Source: Muricea muricata
Taxonomy: Eukaryota > Cnidaria > Anthozoa > Malacalcyonacea > Plexauridae
NCBI GenBank assembly: GCA_963855995.1
Contig: OY979716.1
Span: 45,527,213-45,591,212 of the forward strand
Reading direction: 5' to 3'
DNA length: 64,000 bases
The translations under genes and the position numbers were made by a program. The notes beneath the pieces were generated by a model. It did not search any database and had not been told where the DNA came from. It worked only from the letters and a program-made list of their open reading frames with translations. Every line of letters begins with the position of its first letter. Within the stretch, counting starts at the first letter, position 1. Below are positions 17,148 through 41,200 of the stretch, in pieces.

Positions 17148-17282
17148 GGAAGTATGAGTTTCAATAGCGCAGGCACTCACGTTTTATTCAGCCAACAAGA
17201 ATGGAAACGGACGTGGTTCTGCCTGCAGACTTGTGCTCACTCATGTACCCCATTTGCATTTCATCTCTCAGCTTGGGTAAGT
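17148..17282 (-). promoter_or_regulatory. Spacer between A4 and A3: U1-type promoter and start
   Basis: It has octamer ATGCAAAT (plus 17252-17259), an AATAAAACGTGAG block and CATACTTCC at the A3 start. It is almost identical to the spacers at 9876 and 24410. Confidence 0.6.
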
Positions 17283-17632
17283 TTATACTTCTAAATTCGA
17301 CATTGCCGTCCCGATTGAGGGATTGTGCAATGGCATGCCGAATTTCGGGGTGTGTACCCACACGCAAAACAACTGGGGAGTCGAGCCCCAACCCCGACTA
17401 AATGCCTGTTAAGCACACATTTAGCGCTAATGGACACGACAACACTCTGACGAACGGGACAGAAAACAAGGCAGAAAACAACATATAATTCGTGGAACAT
17501 AAATAGCGCTATAAACCCCAAAAATTAAATAACTAAAAGTTAAAAAATGCAATGTCCTATCGCTCGGGTGGCAATGTCCTCTTGCCAGGGTGGCAAGAAG
17601 GTTAAAAAGAAGAAAAGAGGGAAGAGAGACAC

Positions 17633-20600: not shown

Positions 20601-21185
20601 GGAATATGCTGTGCGCCCAGAATGGAGCTGGCGCCACAGCGGGTACGTTTGCGAGAACAACATGAGGGACTCCAATGCAGGGATGCTTTCCCGTTGCTGG
20701 GCAGCAGGCCCAGCAACATAAGATGGATCTCTGATCCTATCCTTAGCGGGATCCAATACAGAATTAAAGTCCCCGGCCACAAAGGTTGGCCGGGACAAAT
20801 CAATTAGACCAGTCAAACTGGCGAAAAAAGTATTACGCGCCGGGTTACGGTTCGGCGCGTACAGTGAAACAAAACTGGCCTGGCCTTCCCCGAAGTCCAC
20901 AACGGCCTGAATGTAGCGGCCATCTTCATCCTTGATAATTTTCGTAATTTTATATGTGTCTTTAACAAGGATGGCGACGCCTGCACTCTTGGATGTTAAT
21001 GAAGAGGAGGCGACGCGATAGCCGCTGTTAGCGAACCACCTTCTGGCAGACTCGTGCGAAGGGGAGTGGGTCTCTTGGAGGCACACCACGTCCACCTTCA
21101 TGCACTTAAGCCAGTCTACCAGTGCGGTCCGCTTTAGATGGTCGTTCAGACCGTTAATGTTGAGAGAGATTAACTTGAGATCCAT
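17633..21185 (-). pseudogene. A4 ORF2: endonuclease-reverse transcriptase, two frameshifts
   Basis: The ATG is at 21183-21185. The EN domain is complete, with LQETH, GDFN, SRID and a variant I-D-H in place of S-D-H. The RT region has AFDHVDW (R to H), GVRQGCPLSPLLYV and Y-A-D-N, a change in the last Asp of the YADD box that would by itself inactivate catalysis. One base is missing in the AAAAG-TTTTG run near 19735 and another near 18370. Reading therefore moves through three frames: to about 19638, then 19518-18358, then 18385-17633. Confidence 0.88.
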
Positions 21186-23658
21186 TATTGGACTCCAAGG
21201 AAGGCTCAGGCAGCTCCATGAGGAGCTGTAGACAGGTAGGATCGGTGAGGATCGCCCTGTTAATGGCGTCAATCGAGTCCAGCGGCTCCAGCTCCGACTG
21301 GGACACGGGAGCCACAGGGGCCCCACCGATCAATGCCTCAAACCTCCCCATTGATGTTGCTGGGGAGGGCAAAAATTCGGGGGTGGAGAGTACAGAGCCA
21401 AACGGTGACTCCTCTCCCCCCACCACTGATGGAAACGAGCTGCTGTGGATTGGGGGTGGCGTTTGCCACCCCATGTTGGTATCCCCAGCAGCTACGCTCG
21501 AGGACAAGGAGAGGGAGTCCAACGTTGACTCTGTCTCCAAGCGAGATAGAGGGGAGGAGACTGGCGGAATCTCGCTCCCCTCAACTAAATTGTTATTATC
21601 ATTTGTGAGGTCTGGGGTCGACGTGACCCCAGAACCAGGATTGATGATGTTACTTGGACCTGGGGTCGACGTGACCCCAGGACCAGTGCAGATGTTATTC
21701 GTTGGATCTGAGGTCAGCGTGACCCCTGATCCAATATTAGTGTTTATTGTGGGGGAGGAGACTGGCGGCATCTCCCTCCCCTCGGCTGGTACGTTAGTGT
21801 GGCAAACTGGGTCGGAGACCAACATGGCCTCGGTCCCGGAATCAACCTGAGGGGAGGAGACTGGCGGCATCTCCTCAACCTCAGCGATGGTATGGCTAGA
21901 CGGGGGGGAGGAGACTGGCGGCATCTCGCTCCCCCCGACTGATGGTAATACAGGGCAGTCCATATTTAAGGGGTCAAAGACACTTGACCCCGACAAGCAC
22001 TCGTCCACGGCCTCCACCGGTTGCGTGGAAGACAAACGCCGTCTCTTGCGTTCCTGACTCCGCTGCAGTAAAGGGATGTCATCATCCTCCTGCAGCGAGT
22101 CGATCTTCGATTTGCCAGGCCTCCTTTGGGGGGGACAAGGGAGAGGGCCCACGGCACCTCGATACGCCCTTGTCCACTCTGATTGTACTGAGGAGGCACT
22201 GGCCGTTACGGTTGATGTTGTTGAGATGGTCGTTAGGTTAAAGGAGAACTGCTCGACCGAGGGAGCAGCAACCCCCGAGGCAACATCCCCGGGTGCGCTC
22301 ACCAGGACCGACTTGGCCCTGGTTGATCTTGAACTACTCAGACGAGCAGAACCCCTGTACTGGAATGACGCTGGCGTGGCCGTGGCGAGCGTTGCCACCG
22401 TAGCTATGGACTGCGCCCGTTTGGCCAGAGACCGGAAATCTGTCTCCGACTCGGAATCTCGAATTTCCCCCGGCTCCAGATCGTCCGACGGCGATGACAT
22501 GCCGAACACCTGGCGAATAGCAGCCAGGTGATGAGCCGGGGGAGATGTTGATATTTTAGGGTTATTATTTTTGAGAGACTGGACTGCTCTCAGACCAGCC
22601 TCGCCAGGGACGGAAGGGGCAACCTCATCCTGCGGATCCATGGCGGTTACCTTAACTCCCGCCCCCTTTGAAGACCGGCCCTTAGCTTTGCCAGCCTCTC
22701 TTTTGATTTGTGGAGGTGAAGGAGGAGAGCACGTATCCATGGAAACAGCCTCGCCCGTGACGCTATGGACAGTCTTGGCTGCCTCAGCTTTTGCCCCCTG
22801 TGAGGACTGTCCCAGTAATGTGTCAGCCTCCTTCACCTTATTTGTACGCGAGGTGGACCTCGACGCGGCAGCTTTCGAGGGAGCCAACTTGGCAGCCCTC
22901 GACGCGTCGATCTTTTCACGGAGATCCACCTGCTGTTGTTTCTTAGTTAGGGCCGAGACAGTGCGCTCGGACCCTTGAATTTTTATTTTAAGGTCCTCCT
23001 GACCTTGTTTCTTGTTTTTGCCACCCTGTTGTTGTTGTTGCTGGGCAGCTTTCTGGGCCCGCCGAGACTTTGGACAGTCCTTGCCCGTATGCCCCACCTC
23101 CTGGCACACGAAACAAGTCGGTGGCTGCCCGCGGTAACGGAAGGACACCAGAAAGCCCCCGATATTAATGTTCGCAGGGATGGCCTTTGTTAGCACCATT
23201 GACACCCTACGGGTGCCGGAGCGAACGGACTCGAAGCCCTTCACTTTGAGATGTTGCACGGAGAGTACTCTCCCGTAGGGTGCCAAGGTCTCAAAAAGTA
23301 TGTTATCCTGCATCTGCAGAGGGGCCCTATCCACAAAAATTGATTTGACCTCCTCGTAAGCAGGTAGGGGCTGCAAATGGATGCCCCTAAAAGAAATACC
23401 GTTTATGTCGGCGGCGTGCCGATCGGAACTGTAACGAAATTCCACTCGGTATTTGTAGGGAGACAAGGCTTGCACAGCTGCAACCTTGCGCTCCCCAATT
23501 GCTTGAATGATTTCTTTTCTCAGCTGCGGTATTTTGCTGGATCTTACAAGCCTGGATGGAATCGTAACCACCGAAGTGGTCTGATTCCACCGCTGGAAAT
23601 CCGCAGCTGAGAAGGTAACTGTTTTTATGGTGTTACTATTATTCTGGCTGCTAGCCAT
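21154..23658 (-). CDS. A4 ORF1: intact CCHC RNA-binding protein of a Tx1-like LINE
   Basis: The frame has 834 residues, with ATG at 23656-23658 (M-A-S-S-Q). The domain order is as in A3 ORF1: N-terminal block F-Q-R-W-N-Q-T-T-S-V-V, CCHC knuckle C-F-V-C-Q-E-V-G-H-T-G-K-D-C near residue 180, Gln run, basic linker, then a Pro/Ser/Thr tail with at least four M/I-P-P-V-S-S-P repeats. It is longer than A3 ORF1 mainly by an A/T-rich linker segment around residues 280-310. The 32-bp overlap with ORF2 is kept. Confidence 0.9.
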   Translation of the reverse strand: MASSQNNSNTIKTVTFSAADFQRWNQTTSVVTIPSRLVRSSKIPQLRKEIIQAIGERKVAAVQALSPYKYRVEFRYSSDRHAADINGISFRGIHLQPLPAYEEVKSIFVDRAPLQMQDNILFETLAPYGRVLSVQHLKVKGFESVRSGTRRVSMVLTKAIPANINIGGFLVSFRYRGQPPTCFVCQEVGHTGKDCPKSRRAQKAAQQQQQQGGKNKKQGQEDLKIKIQGSERTVSALTKKQQQVDLREKIDASRAAKLAPSKAAASRSTSRTNKVKEADTLLGQSSQGAKAEAAKTVHSVTGEAVSMDTCSPPSPPQIKREAGKAKGRSSKGAGVKVTAMDPQDEVAPSVPGEAGLRAVQSLKNNNPKISTSPPAHHLAAIRQVFGMSSPSDDLEPGEIRDSESETDFRSLAKRAQSIATVATLATATPASFQYRGSARLSSSRSTRAKSVLVSAPGDVASGVAAPSVEQFSFNLTTISTTSTVTASASSVQSEWTRAYRGAVGPLPCPPQRRPGKSKIDSLQEDDDIPLLQRSQERKRRRLSSTQPVEAVDECLSGSSVFDPLNMDCPVLPSVGGSEMPPVSSPPSSHTIAEVEEMPPVSSPQVDSGTEAMLVSDPVCHTNVPAEGREMPPVSSPTINTNIGSGVTLTSDPTNNICTGPGVTSTPGPSNIINPGSGVTSTPDLTNDNNNLVEGSEIPPVSSPLSRLETESTLDSLSLSSSVAAGDTNMGWQTPPPIHSSSFPSVVGGEESPFGSVLSTPEFLPSPATSMGRFEALIGGAPVAPVSQSELEPLDSIDAINRAILTDPTCLQLLMELPEPSLESNNGSQVNLSQH

Positions 23659-24409
23659 AGTTAGTCTAAGTTAAGCACAAAGGGAATTGAACAAAATAGA
23701 AATATATACACAATATCCAGTATAACACGCACTTTTTCTAATGAAAATAAATTAGAGAAAAGAAAAACAAGAAAAAATAACTGGATAAACAAATTCCCAA
23801 CAAAAAACAAAACTTCACTTAACCTAACTAACCTACTATTAAAAGGCCTCTGTGCAATTGAATACAATTGTCCCACAGACTGACTAATCCGGCCTTTTAA
23901 TAGACTAAAGACGCGCTCAAAACCTGAAGGAAAAGATGGACCAAGAACCCCAACAGGAAAGCGTCAAAGAAACCAGAAAAAAGTTAGCCCTGACCTTTGA
24001 GTCACCAGACTCGACAGGCCCAACCACGGAAAAACTAGTTCCCTCTACCTATACACCTGTCCGCAATACGCTATGGTGCAATAATTATGTAAGGAGGTGC
24101 CCAGTTAAGCCGGTACACCGGAAGACAAGGTAGGCTAACCCTACCGCCGATCTCCGAAGAGACCGACAAAGAAAAGAAGTATGGGAGGTGCTGGCAGTCG
24201 TACCAACTGAGGCTAACCCTCAGCCCGACTGTCCCCAGCGGAAGAAAACTACGAGAAGGGTAAGAAGAGTGGCGTGTCTATACCAAGCACAATGAAGGGG
24301 GTGTAGCTAGTTGAATCCGGCACAGCTGTGTTAAGGGCACCAATCTCAAGCATCGATCCACAACTGCCCGGTCGAAGACACTGAAACGCGAATCAAGTGA
24401 TTCGCGCCA
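23659..24409 (-). other. A4 5' UTR with conserved hairpins
   Basis: The two-part hairpin lies at 23836-23903 with the same stems as in A3. CTGAGGG-TTAG-CCTCAG and GGTAGGG-TTAG-CCTACC hairpins lie near 24206-24222 and 24127-24143, and the terminal inverted repeat near 24386-24405. No gene is seen. Confidence 0.7.
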
Positions 24410-25056: not shown

Positions 25057-25215
25057 GGGTGGCCTGTTCTCGATGGTAGTGCAATGACCGAGACAACCCG
25101 TGGCCAGGGCAAAGCAAGCTTCAGTGATAAGTCCCATGGCCAAGCTCCAAAAACCAGTTTAATATATGAGTTAGGCATTGCATAACATATCAGATATTAA
25201 GCTGATAAGAACAGA
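25057..25215 (-). ncRNA. U2 snRNA, nt 39 to 3' end (locus 1, interrupted gene)
   Basis: From position 25215 downward the sequence reads TCTGTTCTTATCAGCTTAAT then ATCTGATA, identical in layout to U2 from nt 39. Next come stem IIa (GTTATGCAATGCCTAAC, one mismatch), a TATATTAAAC segment, an Sm-like site GTTTTTGG (one base off the usual ATTTTTGG), and a final stem-loop closed by TCTCG/CGAGA with loop ATTGCACTACC, matching U2 stem-loop IV. The end is placed at the CCACCC near 25057. The 5' 38 nt lie 5-11 kb away, separated by B1 and C1, so this copy cannot give U2 RNA. Confidence 0.93.
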
Positions 25216-25504
25216 GCCATTACCAATTATTTCTTAAAAACTTACAACAATGGTTATGATAATGAGATAAAGAGTGACCTAGTTACATAGGGGACCATAT
25301 ACAATGGAAGAAATTAATCTAGGGTAATAAAACGAACTGTTAATAATGTCTGAGATATCAACCTAACCACTAGCATAAACTACTCTATGAATAACCACTA
25401 ACAATACTAAATAATAAAAAGTGCGTAAAAGTCCACAGAAATGTCTGTACGTTTAAATATTTACACACTTGAGCCACCTTAAAATACGAGGTGAGCTCAA
25501 TACT

Positions 25505-28500
25505 TTAAACAGTCATATGGCTGTAATAAATGTCAGCAGATCCGCGAATAGCATCACTGCAACAAAGTTAACAGAAAAGTCTGCGATAACGTGGTGATAT
25601 CTTGATATGATCAAGCACCTTCTCATTGGGGGAATGCCACGTCCCTAGCAAACCGACAACAAAACCATACACGCGACAGCTCTTGCCCTGTTTTTCGACA
25701 TGATGGATGACGTGCTGGTATTTTTGTACTTTGCGATCTTCAGCAGTCTGGAGGGCTTTGACATCATTCTCAAATGGAAAGGTAACATCGATGACTGTGA
25801 CATCATCATCTTCAATAACAATGTCTGGCTGACACGCATCATTCATACCCACTACTTGTTGGCCTAGTCGGACGTGACCAAATCTGATTGCCTTTACCAA
25901 TCGATCAACAATCAGGTTGTGTCATTCACGGATTTTAAGCATGTTGGCGGGGCAATGTTAAAGGATATGGGGTAGGGTTTCAGGGTCGGTATTACAAACA
26001 CGGCATAAGGGGTTTTCATCATCAGCCCACCGGTTAATATTCTGTTGTGTGGGGACGACGTCAAGCCTAGCACAGTGAATGAATTGCCAGTCGCTGAACC
26101 GAAGGTTGAGGCCAGTGTAAATCCAAGAGGAACTGCTTCCAAAACGATCACATGTCAAGGCTCGAGCAACTTTACCCTGGTCTGGCAAAGCAAGAAGACG
26201 TTTGGACGAACATTCTTGGCTAAAACGATGGAGTTGAAAACACGCATCGGACGCTTTACACCGTCGGGGGTCATAATCAGGGACATGGAATTTAACACAT
26301 AGATTACGACAAGCTTTCCTAGCTCGGGTCCACAACGAATGGGTTCGATAACGAATACGGTCAGGGTGGAAATTACCAGTGGTGGAGCCAGGCAGGAAAT
26401 CGTTGATAGGGCTAACCGCAGGGTTGTTTCTCGCAGCAAAATGGACAGACTGACGAAGTTCAGCTTTTGAAATATTGGCAACAACAGGGTCAGACGAAGA
26501 CAGCATTTTAATGGCTTGGACGATCGTTTGAATGTCTACCTCGAGGATAGGATCTTGGAGACCAAAACCACCAACTTTCACTGACGCAAAGATGATATTC
26601 TGGGTTGCACGAGATGGTAACTTACAAATATTCCTGACGACTTCAATCAGCTTACGACGATATTTGATTAAGGAGCACTTGTCCGGCTCACCAGCTCGTA
26701 AAACAAAAGTTAAACAGGGTTGGACGAAAGTTCTTATGGCGTCCAACTTTTGCCACGGAGCCAGGAGGGAATCATTGATTTTGTCACGGTCATCACAGAG
26801 TCGAGTAACGAGACTATCAAGTTCATCAACGTCATGCATGATACCAATGAGAACATCAAGATAACGGTAATGCTCGTGTTCTTTAATAGCAGGGATAACT
26901 GTGCCCTGGACGACAAAGTCATTTAATTGAAGGTTCCCAGTGCTGACACGTTTCGAATAAGTACAACTTAGGGAAGCACACTTGTCAGGACAGAATTCCA
27001 GGCCAATTAGTGTGGTTTACTCACTAGCTGGGTCTAATAGCTGCTGTAACTTGCCTTTATCTCGGGCAATGAGAACTAGGTCATCGGCATACACCAGCAC
27101 CGAGGTAGGATGGTCATGGTGTTTCGCTGGGCCAACATCACTAGCTTTAACCAGGATGGAGCGGAGGATGATCTCAACGCTACGGTTAAAGATGATGGGC
27201 GACAAGGGACAGCCTTGCTTGACCCCTGATAAGATGGGGACTGCAGCAGTTTCACCAGCAGGCATACGAACCACCGTGTGAGCATCAGTGTATACGTTCT
27301 TGATTAGTTGAACAACGGACGGAGGGATGCCAAGGTGGGAAAGGGTAGTTTCGATGACGTCATGAGGAACACTACTAAACGCATCACGTAGATCTAACCA
27401 TGCCAGGGAAACATTTTTCTGCAATCTCTTGGCGTCCAACACCAAGGACTGCAACAAAAATGTATGTTCATAACAGCCTTCAGATGGGCGGGCACTCTTC
27501 TGGCAGTCTGATAGTAGATTGTTGTCAATTGCATACGTCACAATAGGGCTAGCCATAACACTCATGAACAGCTTATAAATGCAGCTCATAAGGGCTATCG
27601 GACAGAAGTTTGAGATCTCGTCGGCATCACCTTTCTTGTGGATCAGGACAGTCATCGATTGTTTCCAAGAAGCGGGCACATCATTTTTGTCCAAGCAATG
27701 ATTGAAAATTAATGCAAGGACCCCATACTTTGGATCGACAGCTCGAAGGTGGCGGTACTCGACACGATCTTTACCAGGGGCAGAGTTAGAAAGAGAACGT
27801 AGCTTCTTTAGGATTTCATCTGGTGAAAGGTGGTCACCAAGATGGTTATCAGCAGAACTAGTTGGTACGAAGTCCTGAAGTCCACGTTTAATACCCTCTA
27901 TATCACACGGCCGGGCGTCAAATACACGGGTGAAGTATTGCTCTGCTGTGTCCACAGATCCAGTGTACGATGGTTTATTGTGACCGATAACATTACGCGC
28001 ACCACGCTTCTTCGAAATTTGGTACAGGCTCTGAATTCGTCTCGCTTCAATAGGGTTGTATCTGAGCGGGCGGTGGTTGTTAGCAACTGGTCTGGCAGTG
28101 GGGCGATTAGGACGGCAAGGGGAAGGGTGGTTCTTCTTACCCACAAGGACAGTCGCACTGGTCTCGAGCACGTCCTTAGCAAACACTTTGCACTGATCAG
28201 AAAAAGCAGACCAATTACCAGGATCTGTGAAAATATCAGACCACTTATGATGGAAAGCCTGAACAGGGTTGATGTTATTATCAGCGTGGGAGACTTCATC
28301 AACAGGGATGGTGGAATTGGAATGGAATTGGGAGGATTGGGGCATATCATTATCTACGTCAGTACAACCACTGAAGGCGACCGATGAAGTAGAAGATGAA
28401 TTAGGGGTACCAGGTGGGAGAGATGAGGAAGGAAGGCTGGAATCCAGGGAATGGACAACTGGGCTAGATGGACTAGGAAACACTACATCAACGTAGGGCG

Positions 28501-29498
28501 GAATTGAGGGAGGGGGGTGGACAATGAAACTGCTTACGTCAACATCATTCACGTCAGTGCAACTACTAAAGACAACCGTTGTTTCAGGAGACAGGGATAA
28601 TAGATGGTACAGGACGGTGGATGGATGGGGAGCGACAAACTGGGGAGATTGGTTGAGTTGTAACGTTCCAATCAACGCACTCAGCTGAGGAAACCACCAA
28701 ATCAGCTAAACCATCACGGTCAGGAGATAAGGAGTGGCAAGGTCGAGGAGGAGACGGAGGCAGGACATCCATATCGTCAGGGTCAACATCAGATAGAACA
28801 GGTGGAGGAGTGGCACTACAATACTGGTTAATAAGGGACCGAGGAGGCACTGAGGGGCTGGAAGGGAGGGAGGTAATAGGACACTGGGGAATCTGAGGAG
28901 GAGGTTGGGAAAACGAGGTATTAACAAATTGAGAATCACATGTGTCATGATCAACGGTAGGAGATGTGATACACATCGAAGGGCGGGTAGTAATGCCAGA
29001 CAGTGGAGAGTTAACCAACGATATACGACTCGATCTCCGAGGTCGCAAGGAGGAAACTAAGGTCGAATTGTTCTGCGACAAAGTATAATCAATAAATGAC
29101 ATCACAGGCGAAGGAGAGAGGGGGTATAGTTGGTCTTTCCCAATATTATGAGTACGTTTAATGTGGACACCAGCGCCATTAGATGATGGAAATTCACGGT
29201 CACAAGTAACGCATTTGGCGAATACGTTCAGGGTAATTCCCCTGTGAGAAGTAGAAAAATGACGCTTGAAGTTTGGAAAAGAGCCAATACTGTTATTACA
29301 AAGGCAACAGTAATGGGATTTCCCTTCAGGGAAAAGTCTCACAATGTTAACAAACTTGATATTCTCTGGGACTGAACATTTATGCATCTTAGATCGATGA
29401 ATACCCAAATGGCCTTGCGAGGACGAGATAAAACTACAATCAGGACACTGTACACACGGGGACTGAGACATAATGGACAGGACTACACCAGTACGCAT
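25505..29498 (-). pseudogene. B1 ORF: zinc-finger, RT and restriction-like endonuclease polyprotein
   Basis: The ATG at 29496-29498 (or 29469-29471) precedes three zinc fingers: C-P-D-C...H...H, C-C-L-C...H....H and C-V-T-C...H....H. A Pro/Ser-rich linker holds two V-x-F-S-x-C-T-D-V repeats. RT motifs follow: GKDRVEYRHL, A-W-L-D-L-R-D-A-F, GVKQGCPLSPIIFN and VYADDLVLIA. Then comes a CCHC (C-R-V-C...H....C, its middle Cys codon now a stop). The endonuclease has P-D-I-V-I-E-D-D...D-V-T-F-P-F-E...K-Y-Q, the PD-(D/E)xK-type core. A frameshift lies near 28640, with in-frame stops at about 27017, 25958, 25919 and 25568; the natural stop is at 25505-25507. The zinc fingers and endonuclease would direct insertion into U2 DNA. 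Confidence 0.88.
28360..28577 (-). repeat. Two copies of the CAGTACAACC...AAGGCGACC motif in the B1 ORF
   Basis: Copies lie at about 28360-28383 and 28555-28577 (the second more diverged). They encode V-A-F-S-G-C-T and V-V-F-S-S-C-T. Confidence 0.65.
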
Positions 29499-30271
29499 GT
29501 CTGTTAATGAAAGACAATACAGCAACAGAACAAAATATGGGGATTCCCCATAATCTGGGAATATAATCCAAGGACAATTGACCGTTAAGAAATTAAAATA
29601 AAGATAATTCAAAAACCATCAAAGTCATTGACATCAAACTTGGTAACGTTAAAGATATACATGATGGCCAAGTCTGAGCAAAATTCCAAATAAATACGAC
29701 GAACGGATCCAGAATGACAGGACACAATAGCGATACAACCACAATGTAAACAATATATATTACATAGTACACTACGAATCCAAAATCACGATTTCACTCG
29801 AATAACTGTACAAAACGAGACAAAAAATATATAAAAATGTTCCAAATACAGATTCCAGTCCAGATCCGACAAGAACAAATGACCAATAAACGATATCAAT
29901 TATGTATGCGAAAATTCAAATTAATACCAACAGTCAAAATATACGGGACGGAGTAACACCCAAACAGGACAACAGTACGACTCAAAACTTTAACAGGACA
30001 GAACAACCATAAAACACGGTTTGCAGGCCAAATTTGAACTAAGGACACCAAGGCAAACCAGAGAAATAAGTATATCCAATATCCAGTGAGCAGAATAATA
30101 AATTAGGACACAGAGTCCCCAAAAAACAGCAATAAAACGTTCCAAATAGTGTAAATAAAATCCAAAAAGTATGCAATAGGTGCACGGAGCCTTTACAAAT
30201 GGTTTACAAACAAAATAAAGACAAAAAACAACTGAAATACGCTTCAACAATGACCTTTCAACGGAGCTCCG
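29499..30271 (-). other. B1 5' UTR, no gene seen
   Basis: A+T-rich sequence between the U2 junction and the first zinc finger. It starts with a perfect palindrome ACGGAGCTCCGT across the junction (30263-30274). I see no other feature. Confidence 0.6.
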
Positions 30272-30288
30272 TACTACACTTGATCTTA
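30272..30288 (-). ncRNA. U2 snRNA nt 22-38 between C1 and B1
   Basis: It reads TAAGATCAAGTGTAGTA, identical to U2 nt 22-38 and ending with the branch-point-pairing GTAGTA. Its first seven bases (30282-30288) are the target duplication of C1, matching 36533-36539. B1 follows immediately. Confidence 0.93.
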
Positions 30289-31284
30289 TTTTGAATGAAA
30301 CGACGAGGGACTTATTGACTCCGACGGTGCAATGGAGCCTGGACCCCGTGATATCGCCGTACCCAGGGGGGCCGCTACTTAGCGACGCAGATCTTCAGGG
30401 GGTATGATCCCCTCCCCCGTGCCATGATGACAACCGTGAATGGCCCGAGCGATTGGACCAGAAGGGCTCGCCTGCCCGGGGGTCCCTAACCTATGATGGT
30501 GAATGGCAAGGACAGATGGAACTGACGATTGTGGCGTCGACATGAACAGCACCCATGGGAATAACATAGATCAATAAACAATGGAATCTGCCGTGACCGC
30601 CACAGCGCAAGACTGTGGCGAGCCGACAGTCAAAAATTGATGAACCCCGGCGAAGACGGCAGTACAACCAATTAAGGCGACCCCCGCAGCACCGAGGCCA
30701 ATAGAATCAGCTACAAAAACACATGCTGAGACGGGACGGTACGATCGTAATGGATTGCTCCAAAAACGGAACAGATACTACGCTTCACGATATAAGTGGC
30801 TAGTCAAGCCATGTTTAACAGATAAATAAAACACATACCTGACAAGACAATGGACGGCACAGGACAAGTGCTCAGCATGCACCGGAAGTAGCAACCACCT
30901 AAGGCGACCCCCGGGCATACCAAGCGGACCAGACGTCACAACATTTAACAATAAGGCTGGAAAATGGAAGGACCAGCAGCGATACTCGTGCAAGCGCTGT
31001 AAGCAAATCCTAACTAGAACACGCTGAGAGAGAGGAGAGCCCGGGTAGACCACTCCCCTCCCCGGGGATGAGGTAGCGAACCCCAAGTGCGGCAAAGATG
31101 CAGGAGGGAAGGGAAACAGGTCTCCCCCCCCCCCGCTCAAGTCCTAAAGGAGAGAATACGGCCTAAGAGAGCCTCCCCCTAACGGCGAGGCGTTGCTCGT
31201 GAGACATCCCCCCTCAGGAATGCTACATAATTAGAATGCGAAGCAGCAGGCCTGTTGCCAGACCACCGAGCCTATTATCCATAA
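30289..31284 (-). other. C1 3' UTR
   Basis: About 1 kb without a gene. It is homologous to the C2 3' UTR (62046-62700). It holds two copies of the CAGTACAACC...AAGGCGACCCC motif (30660-30687; 30885-30914) and a C-run near 31122-31134. Near the 3' end ATTGCAC (plus 30327-30333) lies in a loop closed by CTCC/GGAG. Confidence 0.75.
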
Positions 31285-34200
31285 TTAAACCGACCCTAGA
31301 TGGGGTGGAGTGCGCTCATCTGGGACAAGGGCATCAAGCCGAGACAACAAAGGTACCAGCACTCCTCCAGCGAGCCACTCGTCCTCGTAAAAGGAGGCAG
31401 GAGTGATTCGCTGTTGGACTCTCGAGACAAATCGAAACGTTGCTTCGACCTTCTCGACCAAGGCCTGAGGATCCGGACGAAGACCCTCAAATTGCCACGC
31501 ATTTCTCGCGACCCAAACGTAATGGCGCAGGGTTGCCAGCAGGAATTTTAATCCGGCCGGGATTCCGGCCGAGGCCGGAAAACCAAACCGGACGTGTGCG
31601 TTCGAAAGGCGATGGTGTGGCCTTGATTGGGCCAGCAACCCCTCGAACCAGCGAACCGCGTGTAATAACAATGAACATTGTTCGAATAGATCTGCTTGGG
31701 ACTCCTGGGCCCCACAATGGCACAGGGGCTGATGTGTGGCAATACCCCACCGCTGCAGGCGATCGACTGTTGGTAGAATGCCGTGTGCTAGCAGAAAGTT
31801 CGTCTTCCAAATTGCTTTGTCTTGAAAAAAGAGTTCTAAATCGCGCCAGATTGCAGGCCAGTCGATATGGTAGTCGCGGAATCTTTCTGTGCAATGGTGT
31901 TCAGTAAGGCCTCGGAGCCTGAGGTATGCGCGATGGGCTGTTAGTTCATTGAGGGGTGACCCATTTCCGGCTTGGACAACCCAGGAGTTTTCGACGATGG
32001 TGGCCGACCCGAGCTTGAGCCAGGCGTCGAGGACTTGTTGGTAAAAAATAGGCAAACGACGCCTGGTGGATAGTCCGACGTATGTGAATGTAAAAACTCG
32101 TTCGACTGGTTCGGAGAGAAAGGCGCGGCGAAGGAAATGCCTAAAGAAGCATTTCCAAGGATGTTCATGACCGACAAGGAAGCGCTTAATCCACATCACC
32201 CGGAGTGATGCTAGCTTCGAAGCGATATCAACTGTGCCCAACCCTCCACGGGAGGGAGGTAAAGAGGCCGAAGACCGACTGAGCCGCTCCCTCTTATAGT
32301 TCCATACGAATGAAAAAACTGATGTGCTTATCCTAGGGGCCAGGTGAGAGCCTACCGGCACCGTGGAACCCAGGTACCAGAACCGACTAACACCCAGCAT
32401 GCATGCAACTAACGCGCGCCCCCGATATGATAATCTGCGGTGTTGCCAGGAAACGAAAACGCAGTCTAGTGCTTTAAGCGCAGGCTCCCAGTCTTGAGCA
32501 CCATCCGGAGAGATTCTCGCCCCCAGGACCTCGATGTAACTAGACGACCATTTTAACTCCACCGGGAACGAAGTATGAGTCCGCCAGGGGCCGAGCAAGA
32601 GACCGCAGCATTTGCCTTGGTTCAAGCGCGCCCCACTGGCTCGCTCGTACTTCGCGAACAGGCCAAACAGCGCATGCAAAGAAGCATCGCTACACACAAA
32701 GCTTGATGTATCGTCAGCATACTGCGAGAGCTTCACTACGTTGTTCCCCCCCGGAAGGGGGAAGCCGTCGATCTTAGGATCAGCTCGAACCGCGCATGCC
32801 AACGATTCCATCGCCAGAACGTACAACAAAGGCGAGAGTGGACAACCTTGGCGCACCCCCCTGGTCACCGGAAAAGGCTCCGTAACGTAACCATTCACGA
32901 CGACAGCGGAGTGCACCTCGGTATAGAGTAACCTAATCCATGCCCTAAAGGACGGGCCAAATCCCATGCGTTCTAAAACTTTCATCAAGAATGAAATTTC
33001 CACTCTGTCAAAAGCCTTCTCCTGATCTAAGGAGACGATCGCTCCTCCTATGTTGTTTTGGTCCGCATAACATGCTACGTCCAAAAGCAATCTAACGTTT
33101 TGAGCAGGGGACCGACCTGGGATACCACAGGACTGGTCGGGTGATACCACCGAGGCGATCACCTGCAGAAGACGGTTCCCTAGGGCCTTAGCGGCGATTT
33201 TGTAGTCCACGCACAGAAGAGTGATGGGCCTCCAATTCGCCGGATCGAGGCAATCTCCCTTCTTATACAAAAGAGTGATGGCCCCGTTTCTTTGGGATTG
33301 GCAAAGTCGACCGTGGTGAAAACAAGTGTTGTAAACTTCGACTAAATCTGGGCCCAACGTGTCCCAAAAACGCCGAAAAAATTCGGCTGGGAGACCGTCT
33401 ACCCCGGGCGATTTAGCTGATGGCATGTTCGAAAGAGCTTTCGAACATTCCTCAATGGTGAGGTCCCCCTCACACAACCTAGATTCGGCTGGGGTGAGTC
33501 TACGTTCGATGGAGTCGAGAAAGAGCCCTTGGTCACCTTCGGACAATTCCTGCGACGAGAACAACCGAAAATAGAATTCACTCCAGACATCCATAACGTC
33601 AGTTTTGCTCGTGACCACAGTCCCATCACTCCGCCGAATGGCATTGATCAGTTTCTGTTGGCCTCGAACTCTTTCCTTCCTGAGGAAATATGCCGTTGAC
33701 CTCTCCCCTTCAACAGCCTCCCGGACCTGCGCCCGTAACTTAGCACCCTGAGCTTGGTGAGATAGAAACTCCTCAAGCTCAGCCCTAGCCTTGTCTAGAA
33801 GCGCGGAGAGATTTTCACCACGCTGGACCCGTCGTTCTAAATCGGTGAGCCTGGAATTTAACCCGGCAAATTTGTCGCCGTTCTCCTGCGCAAGATTACG
33901 CGAGAAGTCGACAGCAAACCGTCGCAATCGTACTTTGCCGGCTTCGTACCAGTTTGAAAGGAGAGAAAACCCCCCTTCTCGTGGCGCCAATTGCACCAGA
34001 GTTCTTCGACTCCGGTGCAAAAGGCCTCACGTTGCAGTAGCGAAACGTTAAATTTCCACAGTCCGGGACCTCGCTCGACGCCCCAAGGGAGGTCGATCTC
34101 GAGATACACGCACTGATGGTCAGACCGAAGATACGATGTAATTTCTATCTGCCTGACCAGGCCCAAGTAACGCGCAGGCAACCAGATCATATCGATACGC

Positions 34201-34829
34201 GAACCCTGGGAAGCATTTGTCCTCCTCCAGGTGAACTCTTTGACGTTGGGGTGGCGAGCACGCCAAGCATCGCAGAGATCGAATGTACTCATCAACTGTC
34301 GATGAGTGGAGGCCCAATTGTTTGCCCAGGGGGATACAGGATTGCATCCATAACGATCGATATGAGGATCGACCGTTGCATTAAAATCACCACACATCAC
34401 GATTGGGATGTCTGGATCAATAGACTGATAAAGGGACTCAAAAAATTGACGCCCTTCATCCCTAGAATTCGGCGCATATAGGCACATGACTTGGAAGTCA
34501 AAATTGTTGCCAGAAAATTCGACAACAATGAGGCGTCCACAGTCATCCCTTCGAACATGTTTAACCTGAAAGAGGGGGCGAAAGAGAATGGCAACACCCG
34601 AGGAGCGCGCGCTACCCGGTGAACTTTCGCAACACAATTTCTTGTGCGGCGGGGCCTTATTATTATAATCCTCCACCCAGGAGGAGAATTCCTGGATGGA
34701 GTTTGCATGCGTTTCTTGCACACAAAGAAAATCAATATTTAAACATAAAACCCATGAAAAGAACAGTTCCCTAGCTGCCAGCCCACGCAAGCCCTGCACG
34801 TTTAAGGTGTAGAATTTAGAGGTCCTCAT
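31285..34829 (-). pseudogene. C1 ORF2: endonuclease-reverse transcriptase, one frameshift
   Basis: The ATG at 34827-34829 lies 33 nt after the ORF1 stop. EN motifs are CVQETHAN, CGDFNATVD, GSRIDMIW and RSDHQ. RT motifs are N-W-R-P-I-T-L-L-C-V-D-Y-K-I, AFDRVEI, GVRQGCPLSPLLYV and QYADD. A C-terminal C-H-C-G...C-S-L cluster is present. EN and RT are in different frames, joined by a 1-bp indel in a C/G run near 33970-33975; the RT frame is open to 31285. Intact length would be about 1180 residues, as in the A family. EN would cut U2 after nt 28. Only the single frameshift disables it. Confidence 0.9.
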
Positions 34830-34862
34830 CGTGAGCAGGTGGGATGCTGATCTTGCCGGTAA

Positions 34863-36098
34863 TCAGTGGTGCTTCGAGCCCGAAGTCGGGGGACGGGAGG
34901 GGGTGGTCCTTGTGCGACTACTCCCGTGAATGGTGTCGGCAGAGCTCTTGTATGCAGGCACGTCGTGGAGGTTTTTCGGGCCTTTCCCACGCTTCTTTTG
35001 GATGCGGTATTTGGACCCCTCCTGGACGACCGATTGAGACGAATCGGATGTTTCGGAAAGTTCGTCTGGTCGTGGTCGGAGCACCGGGGGTGTGGACGCC
35101 AGTTTTTGGAACAGCTCCTGCGTCGTTGGTAGGTGGAACGGTGGTGGATCTACAGGCACTGAAGATGTAGTATCCACAATGTCTGGCTGGGGTTGTGTGT
35201 CCATCTCGGAGGACTCGTTCGTGTCTTCTGCCGGCGGTAGTTGAGCTTCGCTGACAGGCGGGACGACCGTTGGGTCACTAGCGGGTTTTGACTGCCCCGT
35301 TTCGCTGGTTGGGACAGGCTTTACAGGCGGAGCAGGTGGCGGCGGTGGAGGGGGTGGGTCAGGTAAGGACTCCGAAGCCCCGGAATTCGACTCCGCTGTG
35401 GGCGGCGCTCCCCGGTTGCTCGTCTCCACCGTAGAGGGAAGACCGCTGATGGAAGCGTCAGACGCTGTGGAAGCTGTAGGTGGTTTCCCCCCGGCCGCTA
35501 TCTGTGCGAAGGAGGGCTGGGGATGGTGGTCTGTAGGCGGGATACGTGCAGGGCCCCCCTTGCGTGGACAATTTTTTGCTTCGTGACCAGCTTCCCGGCA
35601 CACGAAGCAAGACCTAGGTTGGTTTTTATAAAATACATTTATTGGGTTACCCTGTACGTTAACCCTGCTTGGAACGTCCTGTCGAAGCTCTATTTCAAGC
35701 CGCCACTTCGACATACCGTACCCTTTATGGGTAATTTGTTTCATGCTAGCGATATTGCCAAATTTTCCAAGCACGGCCGTGATGGCTTCTTTGGGTAAGC
35801 CATAGGGCACCCGATCGAGCATGACAATCGTTGATGACCTTACAGGGTCAATCTTTAATTGGTGGCCCCGGAACGTATACCCGTGGGCCACAAACTCAGG
35901 GACTTGTTCAGGTTTAGCCAAATGTAACAAAAAGGCTTTATTACTATGCTGCATTATATTGCAGATGAGCTTTCTCATGGCGTCTGCTCCAACTTGCCCC
36001 TCCAGGTCATCTAAGATGGCCGCCAAAGTTGGAGTGGGATCCATTGCCAAAGCGGGAATGGTACAAAGTACCGCGCGCTTATGTTCGTATATAGGCAT
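34863..36098 (-). CDS. C1 ORF1: intact CCHC RNA-binding protein
   Basis: The frame has 411 residues, with ATG at 36096-36098 (an in-frame ATG at residue 19 is an alternative start). Residues about 85-160 have an RRM-like feel (I-V-M-L-D-R-V-P-Y-G...G-N-I-A-S-M-K-Q-I), which is inference. A CCHC knuckle has C164, C167, H172 and C177. A Pro-rich linker with a run of ten Pro is followed by a basic, Ser-rich C-terminus. It is half the length of A-family ORF1 and lacks the MPPVSSP repeats. It would package C1 RNA. The frame is open throughout. Confidence 0.88.
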   Translation of the reverse strand: MPIYEHKRAVLCTIPALAMDPTPTLAAILDDLEGQVGADAMRKLICNIMQHSNKAFLLHLAKPEQVPEFVAHGYTFRGHQLKIDPVRSSTIVMLDRVPYGLPKEAITAVLGKFGNIASMKQITHKGYGMSKWRLEIELRQDVPSRVNVQGNPINVFYKNQPRSCFVCREAGHEAKNCPRKGGPARIPPTDHHPQPSFAQIAAGGKPPTASTASDASISGLPSTVETSNRGAPPTAESNSGASESLPDPPPPPPPPAPPVKPVPTSETGQSKPASDPTVVPPVSEAQLPPAEDTNESSEMDTQPQPDIVDTTSSVPVDPPPFHLPTTQELFQKLASTPPVLRPRPDELSETSDSSQSVVQEGSKYRIQKKRGKGPKNLHDVPAYKSSADTIHGSSRTRTTPSRPPTSGSKHH

Positions 36099-36532
36099 TT
36101 CCCCAATATAAAAGAAAAAATGTTATAAAGTTACCCAAGTTGGCCCCAATTTGGGAAGTGCCAACTGTTAGTGTCCTCGATGACCAGGGATCCTGTCCAC
36201 TCGAGACCACACACACACACGAACCACACCAATATGTACACACGAACCACACCAATATATTCACACGAAAGGATGGACCAGGCCAAGAACACACACAGGA
36301 CCAGGACCAACAGCAGGACCAAGCACCGGACCAAAGAACCAGGACCAGGCCAAAGGCCAGCCAGGAACCAACTGGACCAGGACAAGCGAGACCAAGACCA
36401 ACTGGAACAATCGGGCTCTTCAAGCGGGATCTTTAACTGGAACTTCAACAACTTCTTCCACTGGTTCTTCGATAACAGGATCTTCTTACTTGCTTTCTTT
36501 CTCAATCTATCACCACAAAAAAGGATAAGTTA
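36099..36532 (-). other. C1 5' UTR with low-complexity repeats
   Basis: It contains degenerate GGACCA-type repeats (about 36270-36410), a pair of ~21-bp ACACGAACCACACCAATAT-type repeats (36216-36260) and an AC run. No gene is seen. Confidence 0.65.
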
Positions 36533-36560
36533 GATCTTAGCCAAAAGGCCGAGAAGAAAT
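36533..36560 (-). ncRNA. U2 snRNA nt 1-28 (locus 1 5' end)
   Basis: It reads ATTTCTTCTCGGCC then TTTTGGCTAAGATC, the U2 5' stem-loop with two base changes at nt 3-4 relative to the common ATCGCTTC start. C1 begins right after C28. The rest of the same gene lies at 30272-30288 and 25057-25215. Confidence 0.93.
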
Positions 36561-36664
36561 ACCTTGGCTGGGATCGTCAAGTCTTTATTGCCCTCGCTTT
36601 GGCGTGCGTGCACGCGGTGCTTTCGTGTGTTGAGTTTGCATCAGAGTTGCTCGGGTGCTTGCTT
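36561..36664 (-). promoter_or_regulatory. U2 promoter region
   Basis: Immediately upstream of U2 nt 1. It has an AATAAAG block at -23 to -29 (plus 36583-36589) and an octamer-like ATGCAAAC at about -74 to -81 (plus 36634-36641). The U1-type spacers have a similar AATAAAAC block and an octamer. No other sequence is recognised. The upstream edge is where S-unit similarity begins, so some regulatory sequence may have been lost. Confidence 0.6.
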
Positions 36665-36876
36665 TCCGTGACGAAAAGCCCGCTACAGGTACCGCACCTC
36701 CCAAAGCGCGAAACTAGTACGCCGTTAAGCGCACTACCTAAATCTCCCAAGGGAGAACAAAAAATACAACCTGCTGGGTGCACCATACAGATGGAAAAAA
36801 CTGCTGGGCGAACCATACAGTATGAGGTGCCTGCTGGGCTAACCATACAGACAAAAAACTTAACCCAAACGCGTCA
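36665..36876 (-). mobile_element. Sa: SINE-like unit, 3'-truncated at the U2 promoter
   Basis: It starts TGACGCGTTTGGG next to ggtaagt (36877-36883) and follows the S consensus, including the three CTGCTGGGC repeats. Similarity stops around 36660, before the S tail and second target copy. A missing 3' end is unusual for a LINE-mobilised element and points to recombination. Confidence 0.75.
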
Positions 36877-36883
36877 GGTAAGT

Positions 36884-37194
36884 TTTTATTGCAAGTCCTG
36901 CTCCCGACACCAAGAGGGTCGTGCAATGGTCGCAGGATGAAATGCAACTTGGAAGGTCCGCGTTCGTGAAACCGCACTTTTCCGTGAAGAAAAGCACGCT
37001 ACAGGTACCGCACCTCCCAGAGCGTGAAACTGGTAGGCCGTGAAGCGCTACTAGCTAAAATCTCCAAAAGGAGAACAAAAAATACAACCTGCTGGGCGTG
37101 CCATACAGGAGGAAAAAACTGCTGGGCGAACCATACAGTAAAAGGTGCCTGCTGGGCTAACCATACAGACGAAAAACTTAACCTAAACGCGTCA
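36884..37194 (-). mobile_element. Sb: SINE-like unit
   Basis: A 311-bp unit between ggtaagt copies at 36877-36883 and 37195-37201. Tail heptamer ATTGCAC at plus 36921-36927. It is the most diverged of the three complete units in this array. Confidence 0.82.
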
Positions 37195-37201
37195 GGTAAG
37201 T

Positions 37202-37511
37202 TTGTATTGCAAGTCCTGCTCCCGACACCAAGAGGGTCGTGCAATGGTCGCAGGGTGAAATGCAACTTGGAAGGCCCCCGTTCGCGACCGCTCTTTTCCG
37301 AAGAAAAGCCTCGCTACAGGTAACGCACCTCCCAACAGCGCAAAACTAATAGGCCGTAAAGCACTACCAGCTAATGTCTCCAAAAGGAGGACAAAAAATA
37401 CAACCTGCTGGGCGTACCATACAGGAGGAAAAAACTGCTGGGCGAACCCTACAGCAAAAAGGTGCCTGCTGGGCTAACCATACAGACGAAAAACTTAACC
37501 TAAACGCGTCA
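37202..37511 (-). mobile_element. Sc: SINE-like unit
   Basis: A 310-bp unit between ggtaagt copies at 37195-37201 and 37512-37518. Almost identical to Sd. Tail heptamer at plus 37239-37245. Confidence 0.85.
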
Positions 37512-37518
37512 GGTAAGT

Positions 37519-37828
37519 TTGTATTGCAAGTCCTGCTCCCGACACCAAGAGGGTCGTGCAATGGTCGCAGGGTGAAATGCAACTTGGAAGGCCCCCGTTC
37601 GCGACCGCTCTTTTCCGAAGAAAAGCCTCGCTACAGGTAACGCACCTCCCAACAGCGCGAAACTAATAGGCCGTAAAGCACTACCAGCTAATGTCTCCAA
37701 AAGGAGGACAAAAAATACAACCTGCTGGGCGTACCATACAGGAGGAAAAAACTGCTGGGCGAACCCTACAGCAAAAAGGTGCCTGCTGGGCTAACCATAC
37801 AGACGAAAAACTTAACCTAAACGCGTCA
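37519..37828 (-). mobile_element. Sd: SINE-like unit next to the D 3' end
   Basis: A 310-bp unit between ggtaagt copies at 37512-37518 and 37829-37835, the latter directly following the D tail. On the element strand it has three ~30-bp repeats. The first, TTAGCCCAGCAGG, fits the tRNA A-box pattern TRGCNNAGYNGG; the second contains GGTTCG and precedes a T run. It may be pol III transcribed (inference). The tail CCTGC...ATTGCAC...CCC...GGGA-GCAGG resembles the A/D tail. Confidence 0.85.
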
Positions 37829-38227
37829 GGTAAGTTTATATTTTAAAGATGGCGATTCCGTCCCTACTGAGGGAGCGTGCAATGGAATGCCATATTTCAG
37901 GGTGTGCACCCGCACGCAAACGACTGGGGAGTCGAGCCCCAACCCTGACTAAATATGTGCACTGGCTACTTAGTTCCCTTTCGGCGACGCGGCACTGGCA
38001 CATATGTAGCACTAACATTTAAGACAAAAGGACATATTGACGAACGGGACAGTAAACAGGACAGAAAACAATATAGTTACAAAACAAACATAAATTGCGT
38101 GCCTAATTCAATTATGATTACATGCCCCTACAATTAAAAAGCTAAAATAAGCTAACTATACTAAAACCGTGGACGGAGTGACACGCCAAGGTCACACCGG
38201 GATTAAAAAGAGAATAAAAAAGGACAC

Positions 38228-41200
38228 TCAGAAGGCAAAGACCAATTCCGTACCCTCAAAGTGCCCCAAAGAACCGTGGGCAAGCCACTCCCGCTCAAAC
38301 GCGCGAATTTGAGCGGGAGACTTACACCGCTTACTAAGTAAGCCCAAGATAAATTTCAATTTAGCTATAGCCTGACTCAGGCATTTTGATGCGACTGGCA
38401 CCCTCTGACGGAAACGGAAGTCGCAACGGGCAACCCAGATGGTATGCTTCATGACTAACAGCATGAAGATGATGATAGAAGGGATTGCCCGCCGACGAAC
38501 TTCCGAAAACCCGAACAGCAACTCCTCGACAGTGAATTGACCAACGATGGGATCAATGTGATGTAAGTGTTGGAACACCCAGGCAACCAGGACCCGAGCT
38601 ATTTGGCATTCAAAAAATAGATGTTCTAAGGTTTCGTCAGCCGTTCCGCAAAAGCAGAGGCTTTCAACATGAGCCATATGAAACCTGTGTGCCAAACGAG
38701 CCCCGGTATACAAGATGCCGTGCGCAATTTGCCAATTTAGATCAATGACCTTACGGTCCAGATCGCAGATGTGCAGCTGACCCCAAGTTTGGGGCCAGTG
38801 CAACGGACCGTAAGTTGGCATGAATTTTGCGATGCAGTGGGGCTGCTTGTACTTGCGCGACTGCAACTGCTCGTAGGTGTTTCTGGAGGAGAGCTGCTCC
38901 AGGGAAATAGGTGCGTCAGAGGATGCTAATATACTTAACACCCCACCCCTCACTTCACCCCCATCCAAGGCCCGCCATACCCTGAACAGGAGCTGGTAAA
39001 AGGTGGGGAGAGTCTCGACCAGAGGGCGAGGTTGCGTGTTTAAAAGGGCAGCCCGTGGCTGTAAATTAAAGGAAGAAGTAACAAAATGAACAAAAAAGGA
39101 TTTCCATTTGCTCCTTGAGGGAGCAAAAAAACGCTTGATCCACTGGGCTGCAAAGGCCTCTGCCTTAAGTGAAAGGTTTATGACCCAAAAACCGCCTTGG
39201 GATTTGGGGAGGGTTACGGTGGTCCGAGCAACCAGATCTCTTTTGCCAGACCAGAAAAAGGACCAGATGGCTTTGTTAATCCTTTTCTCTGCCCACGTAG
39301 GGATGACAAATACGTGGCAGAGATGCCAGATCTGGGACAGGGCCAAGGTGTTGATTATGACCGTTTTGCCCTGGGAGGACAATTGCCTGCCCGACCATGC
39401 CGAAAGGCGTTTCTCTAATTTAGCTATGGCTGGCTCCCACGTTGGAATGGTGTAGTCACCAACGCTGAAGGTCGCACCGAGCAACGGGAGTTGTTTCACC
39501 CAACGCAACCCATGAGGGGCGTCGGTGCGATCCTTCCAGGAACCAGCCCATAGTCCTTTTGACTTGCCTCTGTTGAGTTTGGCCCCAGAGGCCCTCTCAT
39601 ATTGGGCATATGTGGTAAAAACCTCCTCTATGGAGTCATCGGTGGTGACCGCGGCAGTGGTGTCGTCCGCGTACCCTGTACCCCGAAGCTCCTCCAAAGA
39701 ATTAGGAAGTGTAATGCCAGTTATTTTTGAGGATGTCCGGAGACAGACGGCAAGCACTTCAATAGAGATTACATACAATAGCGGGGATAACGGGCACCCT
39801 TGCCGCACCCCGCGAGAAAGAGAAAAAAAAGAGGAAGTCCAACCGTTAATAACTACTGCCGACTCAATGTTACGATAAAATAGTTTGATCCATTTTATGA
39901 AATCGGACCAAAGTTAAAGGAAGAGAGTATGCGGATGAGAAAACCCCAGTCGACCCGATCAAAAGCCTTCTCTTGATCTAATGACAGAAGCGCTAGCGGG
40001 AGGTTTTCTCGATCCACATACTCCAGAAGGTCTCGTATCAACGAGAGATTCTCCGAGATGGTGCGCCCAGGGACACCACACTTTTGGTCTGGACCTATGA
40101 TGGAGCCCAGAACTCCTAGAAGACGACCCGAGATGGCACGGGTTGCGATTTTGTAATCGACATTTAGGAGGCTTATAGGCCTCCAATTCTTGGTTTCAAG
40201 AGGGTCGTCTTTCTTATATAGAACTATGATAAGCCCTCGACGCTGAGAGGTGGAGAGCTGGCCGGTCTCAAACGCAAGATTGAGGACGCGGACCAGGTCA
40301 GCGCCGAGAGCTTCCCAGAAGGCGACGTAAAATTCCATAGGGAATCCATCTGAGCCCGGTGTCTTACTGCGACTCATGCCCATAAGGGCTTGAAAACACT
40401 CGTCCACAGTAAGACACCCCTCACATGAAGCCCGTTCATTTGGATCGAGGCGACGCGTTAACTTGGCCAGGAGTTCATCCTGAGCCACAGGGTCGCACTG
40501 CGTCGCGGTGAATAGGTCTTGGTAATAGTTCCGCCAGACCCCCACAATGCCAAAAGGGTCGTGGCAGACTTCACCGGTGGTGGGGTCTCTGATGGACTTC
40601 ATTGCTTGTTTTCCATGCTTCTTCGTTGCCAGGTTCAGAAAAAAGCACGAGGAGGTCTCCCCTTGCTCCGCCCACTGGCAGCGAGCACGGACCTGAGCAC
40701 CCCGAGCCTCATGGAGCGCGATGGTGCGGAGTTCCTGCTGAATTTCACATAACTTAGCGAAGGAGGCTTGATCTCCGGCCTCAAAAAGGGCCTGCAGCGC
40801 TCGCATACGTTTGAGGAGCAACGACTTATGGTTACGTTTTTCTGCAGCCTTAGATTTCGAATAAGATCGTGTGACTTCGCGCAGGTAGAATTTGCCTTTG
40901 TCCCACCAATCTAATAAGGACGCGAAATCCTCGTGGGCTTTATAAGTGTCCCAGAAGGACCAAAATGATTTTATCAAAGCGATATACTCTGGATCCTGGA
41001 GGAGGGAGGTGTTGAACTTCCATACCCCCGGTCCAGCAATAATGGGATCACGGAAACGGCACTTAACTAGTAGGTACTGGTGATCCGAGAAGAAGGAGGG
41101 ATGGTAATCGCATTCTTGGATGCAATCTTGCATGACAGTGGGTGCCCATATCATGTCAATACGCGATGCGAATTCACCAGACCCATGTGTCCAGGAATAG

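Follow-up and report, generated by a model that had tools for sequence, protein, structure and literature searches.

Two unrelated retrotransposons at sites 10 nt apart in a U2 snRNA gene of Muricea muricata

INTRODUCTION

The retrotransposons R1 and R2 are known to occupy 28S ribosomal RNA (rRNA) genes together, and target-primed reverse transcription is established for elements of both the R2 and the L1 kinds. Among the elements of small nuclear RNA (snRNA) genes Keno, which belongs to the Tx1 clade, was reportedly described in 2004. The passages of PMC2718515 consulted here make no mention of joint occupancy by R1 and R2, and those of PMC4640811 name, as of 2015, only Keno, Utopia, Dada-U1 and Dada-U6 as snRNA-targeting elements. 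According to the latter passages Utopia leaves no target site duplication (TSD) in arthropods and one of 20 base pairs (bp) in reptiles, and its 3′ flank starts at nucleotide (nt) 39 of U2, a junction common to Keno (PMC4640811). Here we describe a U2 gene, gene I (25057-36560), which lies in a 64,000-nt stretch of the cnidarian Muricea muricata (contig 1:45527213-45591212 of a 453-Mb, 74-contig assembly, GCA_963855995.1; the whole stretch is referred to as the window) and carries two unrelated retrotransposons without long terminal repeats (non-LTR), C1 and B1, at neighbouring sites.

RESULTS

On the minus strand gene I reads, in order, as 5′ flank, U2 nt 1–28, C1, U2 nt 22–38, B1, U2 nt 39 to the end and 3′ flank (Table 1), with both elements oriented in the U2 sense. 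C1 is flanked by two copies of the 7-bp duplication TAAGATC (36539-36533 and 30288-30282), and the junction of B1 at U2 nt 38/39 is clean. The two insertion sites are separated by 10 nt in U2 coordinates; the duplication raises this to 17 nt in the DNA itself. Both native flanks are matched in other U2 genes, the 3′ flank (24945-25216) being 89.8% identical to that of the window's other U2 gene (51054-51322), so gene I is one gene unit and not a set of loose fragments. An Rfam search of the window at E values up to 1 returned ten rows, four for U2 and six for repeat-like miRNA matches below their own cut-offs.

Among solved structures the reverse transcriptase (RT) of C1, an element of the endonuclease (EN) type, is closest to L1 ORF2p (8.7e-65, compared with 2.4e-17 for R2), and the RT of B1, an element of the restriction-like endonuclease (RLE) type, is closest to R2 (5e-32, compared with 4.1e-15 for L1). 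The two RTs share 26% identity, and frame breaks or stops interrupt both elements. A sequence-only reading of the window had proposed three U2 pieces in order on one strand, a 7-bp duplication around C1 with a clean B1 junction, a spacing of 10 nt and two unrelated retrotransposon types in one U2 gene. All of this is borne out: the pieces are present in the expected order, the TAAGATC copies and the 38/39 join were read directly, the spacing holds in U2 coordinates, and the nearest RTs differ together with the accompanying endonucleases, L1-like with an endonuclease domain in C1 and R2-like with an RLE in B1.

The window contains a second U2 gene of this kind, gene II, about 15–25 kb upstream of gene I, with the element C2 at nt 24 and the element D1 at nt 39. 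Both elements, like the U1 target of the A elements described below, had been overlooked in the first reading. At its upstream end C2 adjoins U2 nt 1–24 with a native-like flank, U2 nt 1 lying at contig 1:45595833, 4.6 kb past the window. Its identity to C1 is 52, 34 and 36% over RT segments and 45 and 40% over EN segments. The RT of D1 is, like that of B1, nearer to R2 than to L1, and identity between the two elements is 52% over the RT and 45% over the C-terminal piece. Pfam recognises the RT of D1; two zinc fingers, the CCHC motif and the PD-X-D motif were read by eye, the last two across frame breaks, and Pfam gives no support for zinc fingers in the D1 N-terminal piece. B1 and D1 match every testable feature of Utopia, namely the 3′ junction, the domain layout and the mode of TSD. 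Two other insertions are nested in gene II: an insert resembling a miniature inverted-repeat transposable element (MITE) in the 3′ tail of C2 (61401-62045, minus strand; inverted ends of ~28 bp and a TAA duplication) and a DNA transposon of ~3.6 kb in D1 (~56987-60553), which has inverted ends with GGTACGTGG repeated near both.

If such elements inserted at random, copies should lie at random sites outside U2, an outcome that the sequence-only reading had itself named as contrary evidence. We searched genome-wide with the last 180 nt of B1 and the last 120 nt of C1. For B1 there are six matches, all of them leading to U2 nt 39: four are aligned to the last base and adjoin nt 39, and two stop 3 and 11 nt short. 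For C1 the 3′ flanks of all 27 matches were read, and every one keeps at least 4 nt of the U2 site; in 20 of them a recognisable stretch of U2, 10 nt or longer and beginning at nt 22 or 24, comes next (with one substitution each in L019 and L123). Random insertion of B1- and C1-type elements is refuted. The classification of B1 as R2 by target, that is as an element of the 28S rRNA gene, is likewise ruled out by the U2 target in 6/6 copies.

Use of the two sites was then counted with exact patterns for U2 nt 39–58 (53 sites), 24–38 (28 sites) and 5–28 (13 sites), all contexts being read; 46 of 34,400 U2 candidates were scored, and the counts are not an occupancy rate. The 28 sites matching nt 24–38 comprise 13 occupied at both places, six at the C site only, six at the RLE site only and three that are empty. 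At nt 39–58, 43 of the 53 sites start exactly at nt 39 after non-U2 sequence, 34 with U2 continuing on the right and nine with non-U2 sequence on both sides, which are tandem RLE-type elements sharing the 20-bp piece; the remainder have U2 on both sides (7/53) or U2 on the left and non-U2 sequence on the right (3/53). The single U2 gene carrying both elements, as first described, is real as an arrangement and not unique, double occupancy recurring genome-wide, and its presence at 13/28 exact sites excludes chance. The doubles are also varied: L080 has a short element at the C site, and L087, L090 and L099 have another type of 3′ end, here called E. The exact patterns pick out intact pieces; in L094 and L116 the RLE-type 5′ junctions lie 2 nt earlier, at nt 36, so that 5′ ends vary. 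The short element, of ~285 bp, carries AUUGCAU near its 3′ end and was found at the nt 28 site of C in L080 (contig 1:45689377-45689641), L067 and L122.

We hold with high confidence that two independent site-specific non-LTR lineages each struck gene I once, by target-primed reverse transcription. Judging from the junctions, the C1 lineage, L1-like and with an apurinic endonuclease, would nick the bottom strand of U2 at about nt 21–23 and the top strand after nt 28, leaving a short duplication of 5–7 bp. The RLE of B1, an element of the Utopia kind, would nick between nt 38 and 39 and leave a clean join, its cousin D1 leaving a duplication of 20 bp. Both sites lie beside the branch-point-pairing GUAGUA, which is highly conserved in U2, so the target would stay available; an interrupted U2 copy would be a neutral target, to which a second element could be added. 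C and B may be co-transcribed from the U2 promoter, and damaged copies outside the tandem array would escape homogenisation and decay.

The same arrangement could in principle arise without any gene being struck twice, by recombination or gene conversion between U2 genes bearing C and U2 genes bearing B. The tandem U1 and U2 genes on contig 16 and the presence of near-identical duplicates (L022/L023 at 100%, L005/L006 at 99.8% over 3.1 kb) would favour such exchange. However, genes I and II cover every U2 base once, plus the expected short duplications, and retain both native flanks; the crossover would need to fall repeatedly within the 17-nt piece of U2 nt 22–38; and the 13 doubles mix different 3′ and 5′ end types, all of which makes recombination very improbable. 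Even less credible is an assembly artefact in which long repeats were collapsed or wrongly chained. The region is highly repetitive, but exact and biologically sensible junctions (the TSD and nt 39) recur at many places across several contigs, in elements of different families. B1 is too diverged from D1 (RT 52%), and C1 from C2 (52% in the best RT segment), to be confused, and the error would need repeating at many loci.

Two independent strikes also have to be weighed against several less favourable observations. Seven of the 27 C1-type 3′ flanks (L114, L115, L117, L119, L120, L122 and L124) keep only 4–7 nt, TAAGATC-like, ahead of other sequence, L124 retaining TAAG alone; in L119 and L120 the short flank is followed by another C 5′ end (head-to-tail C) and in L122 by the 285-bp type. 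One double, L083, has a 5′ end of no recognised type after U2 nt 58. The exact patterns miss altered junctions, and empty U2 copies are undercounted, many intact copies being partly N. Proteins were examined for B1, D1, C1 and C2, the type of element elsewhere being judged from junction sequence. Over the 28 exact sites the two insertions are not associated (Fisher p = 1.0, with intact copies undercounted), so there is no sign of one insertion attracting the other. Finally, some doubles may share one event via segmental duplication, as L016 matches L017 at 97.5% identity across 2.3 kb. This pair was also compared with regard to the order of insertion, as were L081 and L085 (84.5% in their C parts and 88.5% in their B parts).

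The snRNA genes fall into two main clusters. That on contig 16 (6.1-6.6 Mb) is a tandem U1/U2 array with native copies, in which U1 matches occur in runs at 1,634–1,638 bp spacing with U2 between (42 of 5,883 candidates scored), and that on contig 1 (44.4-45.9 Mb) is largely decayed and filled with elements; other U2 pieces lie elsewhere on contig 1, on contig 2 and on contig 22. The element copies of the window are decayed, with the U1/U2 tandem array on another contig. Compared with the native copy from nt 58 on, all 14 occupied U2 copies compared on contig 16 have 0 mismatches and 0 gaps, as do 5/24 on contig 1. Among occupied 24–38 sites doubles make up 12/16 on contig 1 and 1/8 on contig 16 (Fisher p = 0.008, the single contig-2 site being excluded), and our reading is that second hits accumulate in U2 copies outside the array that were dead beforehand. 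Not all doubles are old rearrangements, since the U2 3′ piece of the young double L085/L017 (contig 1:45815232-45809014-45803929) has 0 mismatches to native from nt 58 on.

A third lineage, A, also of the EN type, occupies U1 genes and is present, together with S units of 317 bp, at 2639-24400 and 36673-50618 of the window. A and C1 have 36% identity in the RT. A4 and A5 begin after U1 ATACTTACCTGACGCGAG, A1–A3 show an altered form of it, and the U1 start joined to the TCACTTG of A occurs 23 times in the examined loci, some occurrences overlapping. The S units share this U1 site and are arranged head to tail, an order often seen in the A lineage and its S units. Of 91 candidate 3′ ends of A, 40 were scored, all in the U2-piece regions of contigs 1 and 16, and 20 of those 40 were read: L144 joins real U1 at nt 3, and the remaining 19 run into a copy of the U1 start, ACTTACC-like, that lies ahead of the U1 octamer (16 with ACTTACCC, three with variants). 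Junctions with U1 nt 3 were also read at the A 3′ ends of L086, L097 and L106.

The EN-type elements have a further feature in common. We gathered 36 3′ ends, 25 of them distinct, having dropped matches in D-type 5′ ends by a rule fixed beforehand. The motif AU(U/A)G(C/U)A(C/U) is present in 23/25 distinct ends, 44–64 nt from the end, and 21 of those 23 have a closing C-G pair; the match in L078, where the hairpin region is missing, is probably due to chance. The two ends that have no motif are C2, in which the MITE-like insert divides the tail and CCATTGCAC lies before the insert, at 62085, and L062 (TTTGCAC). The stems around the motif differ in sequence between C, E and A. Those of E are 9–11 bp long and of other sequence in L065, L090 and L099 and 3 bp in L087, and in the A 3′ end the heptamer sits in an internal loop. 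Several stems are only 2–4 bp long; in the controls 32% of positions give 4 bp and 15% give 5 bp, so we find only those of C and E and the longer ones of A convincing. Folding energies are unremarkable (z −0.25 to −1.58 over eight stretches, that of L065 being uninformative).

The passages of PMC2203988 consulted describe contacts of U1A with AUUGCAC and with the CG pair that closes it. From the sequences one could imagine that the EN-type elements (those with C or E ends in U2 together with A and S in U1) are one radiation specialised in spliceosomal RNA genes, which would find or keep to them through a shared 3′ hairpin that mimics the U1A/U2B'' site, AUUGCAC with a closing C-G pair, of stem-loop II in U1 and stem-loop IV in U2, and would bring a host small nuclear ribonucleoprotein (snRNP) protein into the retrotransposition complex. 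We regard this as unlikely: several stems are too short to carry much meaning, and a 3′ end inherited from a shared ancestor would account for the motif with no protein involved.

Sequences complementary to U2 were seen in two other settings. In 10/12 non-U2 starts after nt 58 the 5′ end of the D-class RLE element contains a stretch antisense to U2 nt 25–36 (CTACACTTGATC or a close variant), located at 61353-61329 in the window and also present in L061, L063, L068, L069, L070, L073, L099, L102 and L103. Should U2 transcription read through, such a stretch could base-pair with the U2 sequence upstream of it, and it might play a role in 5′ processing or target pairing. In addition, the spacer after U2 has a string antisense to U2 and like GTAGTATCTGTTC (window 24979-24990 and 51087-51099, plus strand), which recurs in the L045 spacer, followed there by CTCCGTTTTTGGAGC, so that it resembles two U2 motifs side by side. 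A near-identical copy of this string lies in the 3′ untranslated region (UTR) of C1 (30781-30757, minus strand).

Table 1. Coordinates of the features of the window
Feature	Position	Strand	Evidence or remark
U2 gene I, native 5′ flank with octamer-like ATGCAAAC	36561..36660	-	80-87% identity to flanks of U2 genes L079, L094, L100
U2 gene I, nt 1-28, ending in the TSD TAAGATC	36533..36560	-	sequence match; nt 5-28 exact, nt 3-4 changed
Element C1, EN-type, L1-like non-LTR retrotransposon, decayed	30289..36532	-	Pfam Exo_endo_phos and RVT_1; related 3′ ends at same U2 site
C1 open reading frame 1 (ORF1), weak zinc knuckle	34866..36122	-	zf-CCHC E 0.047, below cut-off
C1 apurinic-like endonuclease	33861..34862	-	Exo_endo_phos 1.5e-14
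C1 RT and zf-RVT	31288..34026	-	RVT_1 1.5e-31
C1 3′ hairpin GGCUCC[AUUGCACCGUC]GGAGUC, loop resembling U1A site	30317..30339	-	fold and comparison with other 3′ ends
U2 gene I, nt 22-38, begins with second TSD copy, contains GUAGUA	30272..30288	-	exact
Element B1, RLE-type, R2-like (Utopia-like) non-LTR retrotransposon, decayed	25216..30271	-	
B1 N-terminal part, three C2H2-like zinc fingers	28587..29618	-	read by eye; Pfam C2H2 matches weak
B1 RT	27020..28705	-	RVT_1 5.5e-24; R2 5e-32
B1 C-terminal part, CCHC motif and PD-X-D RLE, in-frame stops	25570..27016	-	read by eye
U2 gene I, nt 39 to end	25057..25215 (25057 end approximate)	-	6 mismatches and 4 gap positions vs native copy, from nt 58 on
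Element C2, 3′ part, at U2 nt 24; reaches to ~contig 1:45595809	61389..64000	-	83% similarity to C1 3′ UTR
U2 gene II, nt 24-58	61354..61388	-	
Element D1, RLE-type, Utopia-like, 20-bp TSD (U2 39-58)	51322..61353	-	
U2 gene II, nt 39 to end	51161..51321	-	2 mismatches and 6 gap positions vs native copy, from nt 58 on
Element A4, EN-type, starts after U1 start ATACTTACCTGACGCGAG	37836..44737	-	
S, ~3.7 tandem 317-bp units, each beginning at U1 ACTTACCTGACGCG	36673..37835	-	
Elements A1-A3, head to tail; between them pieces with U1 promoter and (altered) U1 start	2639..24400	-	

DISCUSSION

At least three site-specific retrotransposon lineages can share one splicing-RNA locus, two in U2 at sites 10 nt apart and one in U1. 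This adds an EN-type U2 target distinct from that of Keno, as well as a U1-targeting non-LTR lineage. In the titles and abstract openings of the open-licence literature we found no report of a U2 gene with both element types and none of a U1-targeting non-LTR retrotransposon. The doubles also set a bound on the target, as the later element used merely 17 nt of upstream U2 (if it was B) or 10 nt of downstream U2 (if it was C). C and A are related (RT 36%) yet reside in different genes and therefore offer a natural experiment in target change.

The closest described counterpart of C1 is Keno, which is U2-specific and carries an endonuclease of the apurinic type (passages of PMC4640811); the two share an apurinic-like endonuclease, an L1-group RT and the U2 target. 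The link of C1 to Keno drawn in the sequence-only reading nevertheless fails by site, as C1 sits at nt 22–28 with a TSD of 5–7 bp, in contrast to the nt-39 3′ flank that these passages give for Keno in common with Utopia, and U2 nt 39 is the 3′ flank in 0/27 C1-type ends. Descent of C1 from within Keno, with a target shifted ~15 nt upstream within U2, would fit the shared enzyme type, RT group and target gene; given the ends just described, we consider it doubtful. The distinction from Keno is one by site.

B1 and D1 resemble Utopia, described in the same passages as a U2-specific, RLE-encoding member of the NeSL clade, in the nt-39 junction and in the succession of zinc fingers, RT, CCHC motif and RLE. 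The two modes of Utopia, no TSD or one of 20 bp, are the patterns of B1 and D1 respectively, here both within one genome. Also alike are the several families kept together in U2 arrays and the numerous disrupted U2 copies (PMC4640811, same passages). Unlike Utopia, the RLE elements described here are often paired with an upstream insertion in the same U2 gene; a place of their RTs within the Utopia/NeSL branch is putative.

For the U1 gene the described counterpart is Dada-U1, which shares with A the U1 snRNA gene as its target. According to the passages of PMC8869645 consulted, however, Dada-U1 is a DNA transposon with a TSD of 6–7 bp, whereas A is a non-LTR retrotransposon.

As a system, C1 and B1 resemble R1 and R2, in that two endonuclease types are directed to two nearby sites of one multicopy RNA gene. 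In contrast to R1 and R2, the gene here is that of a spliceosomal snRNA, the sites are 10 nt apart, and a third lineage occupies the linked U1 gene.

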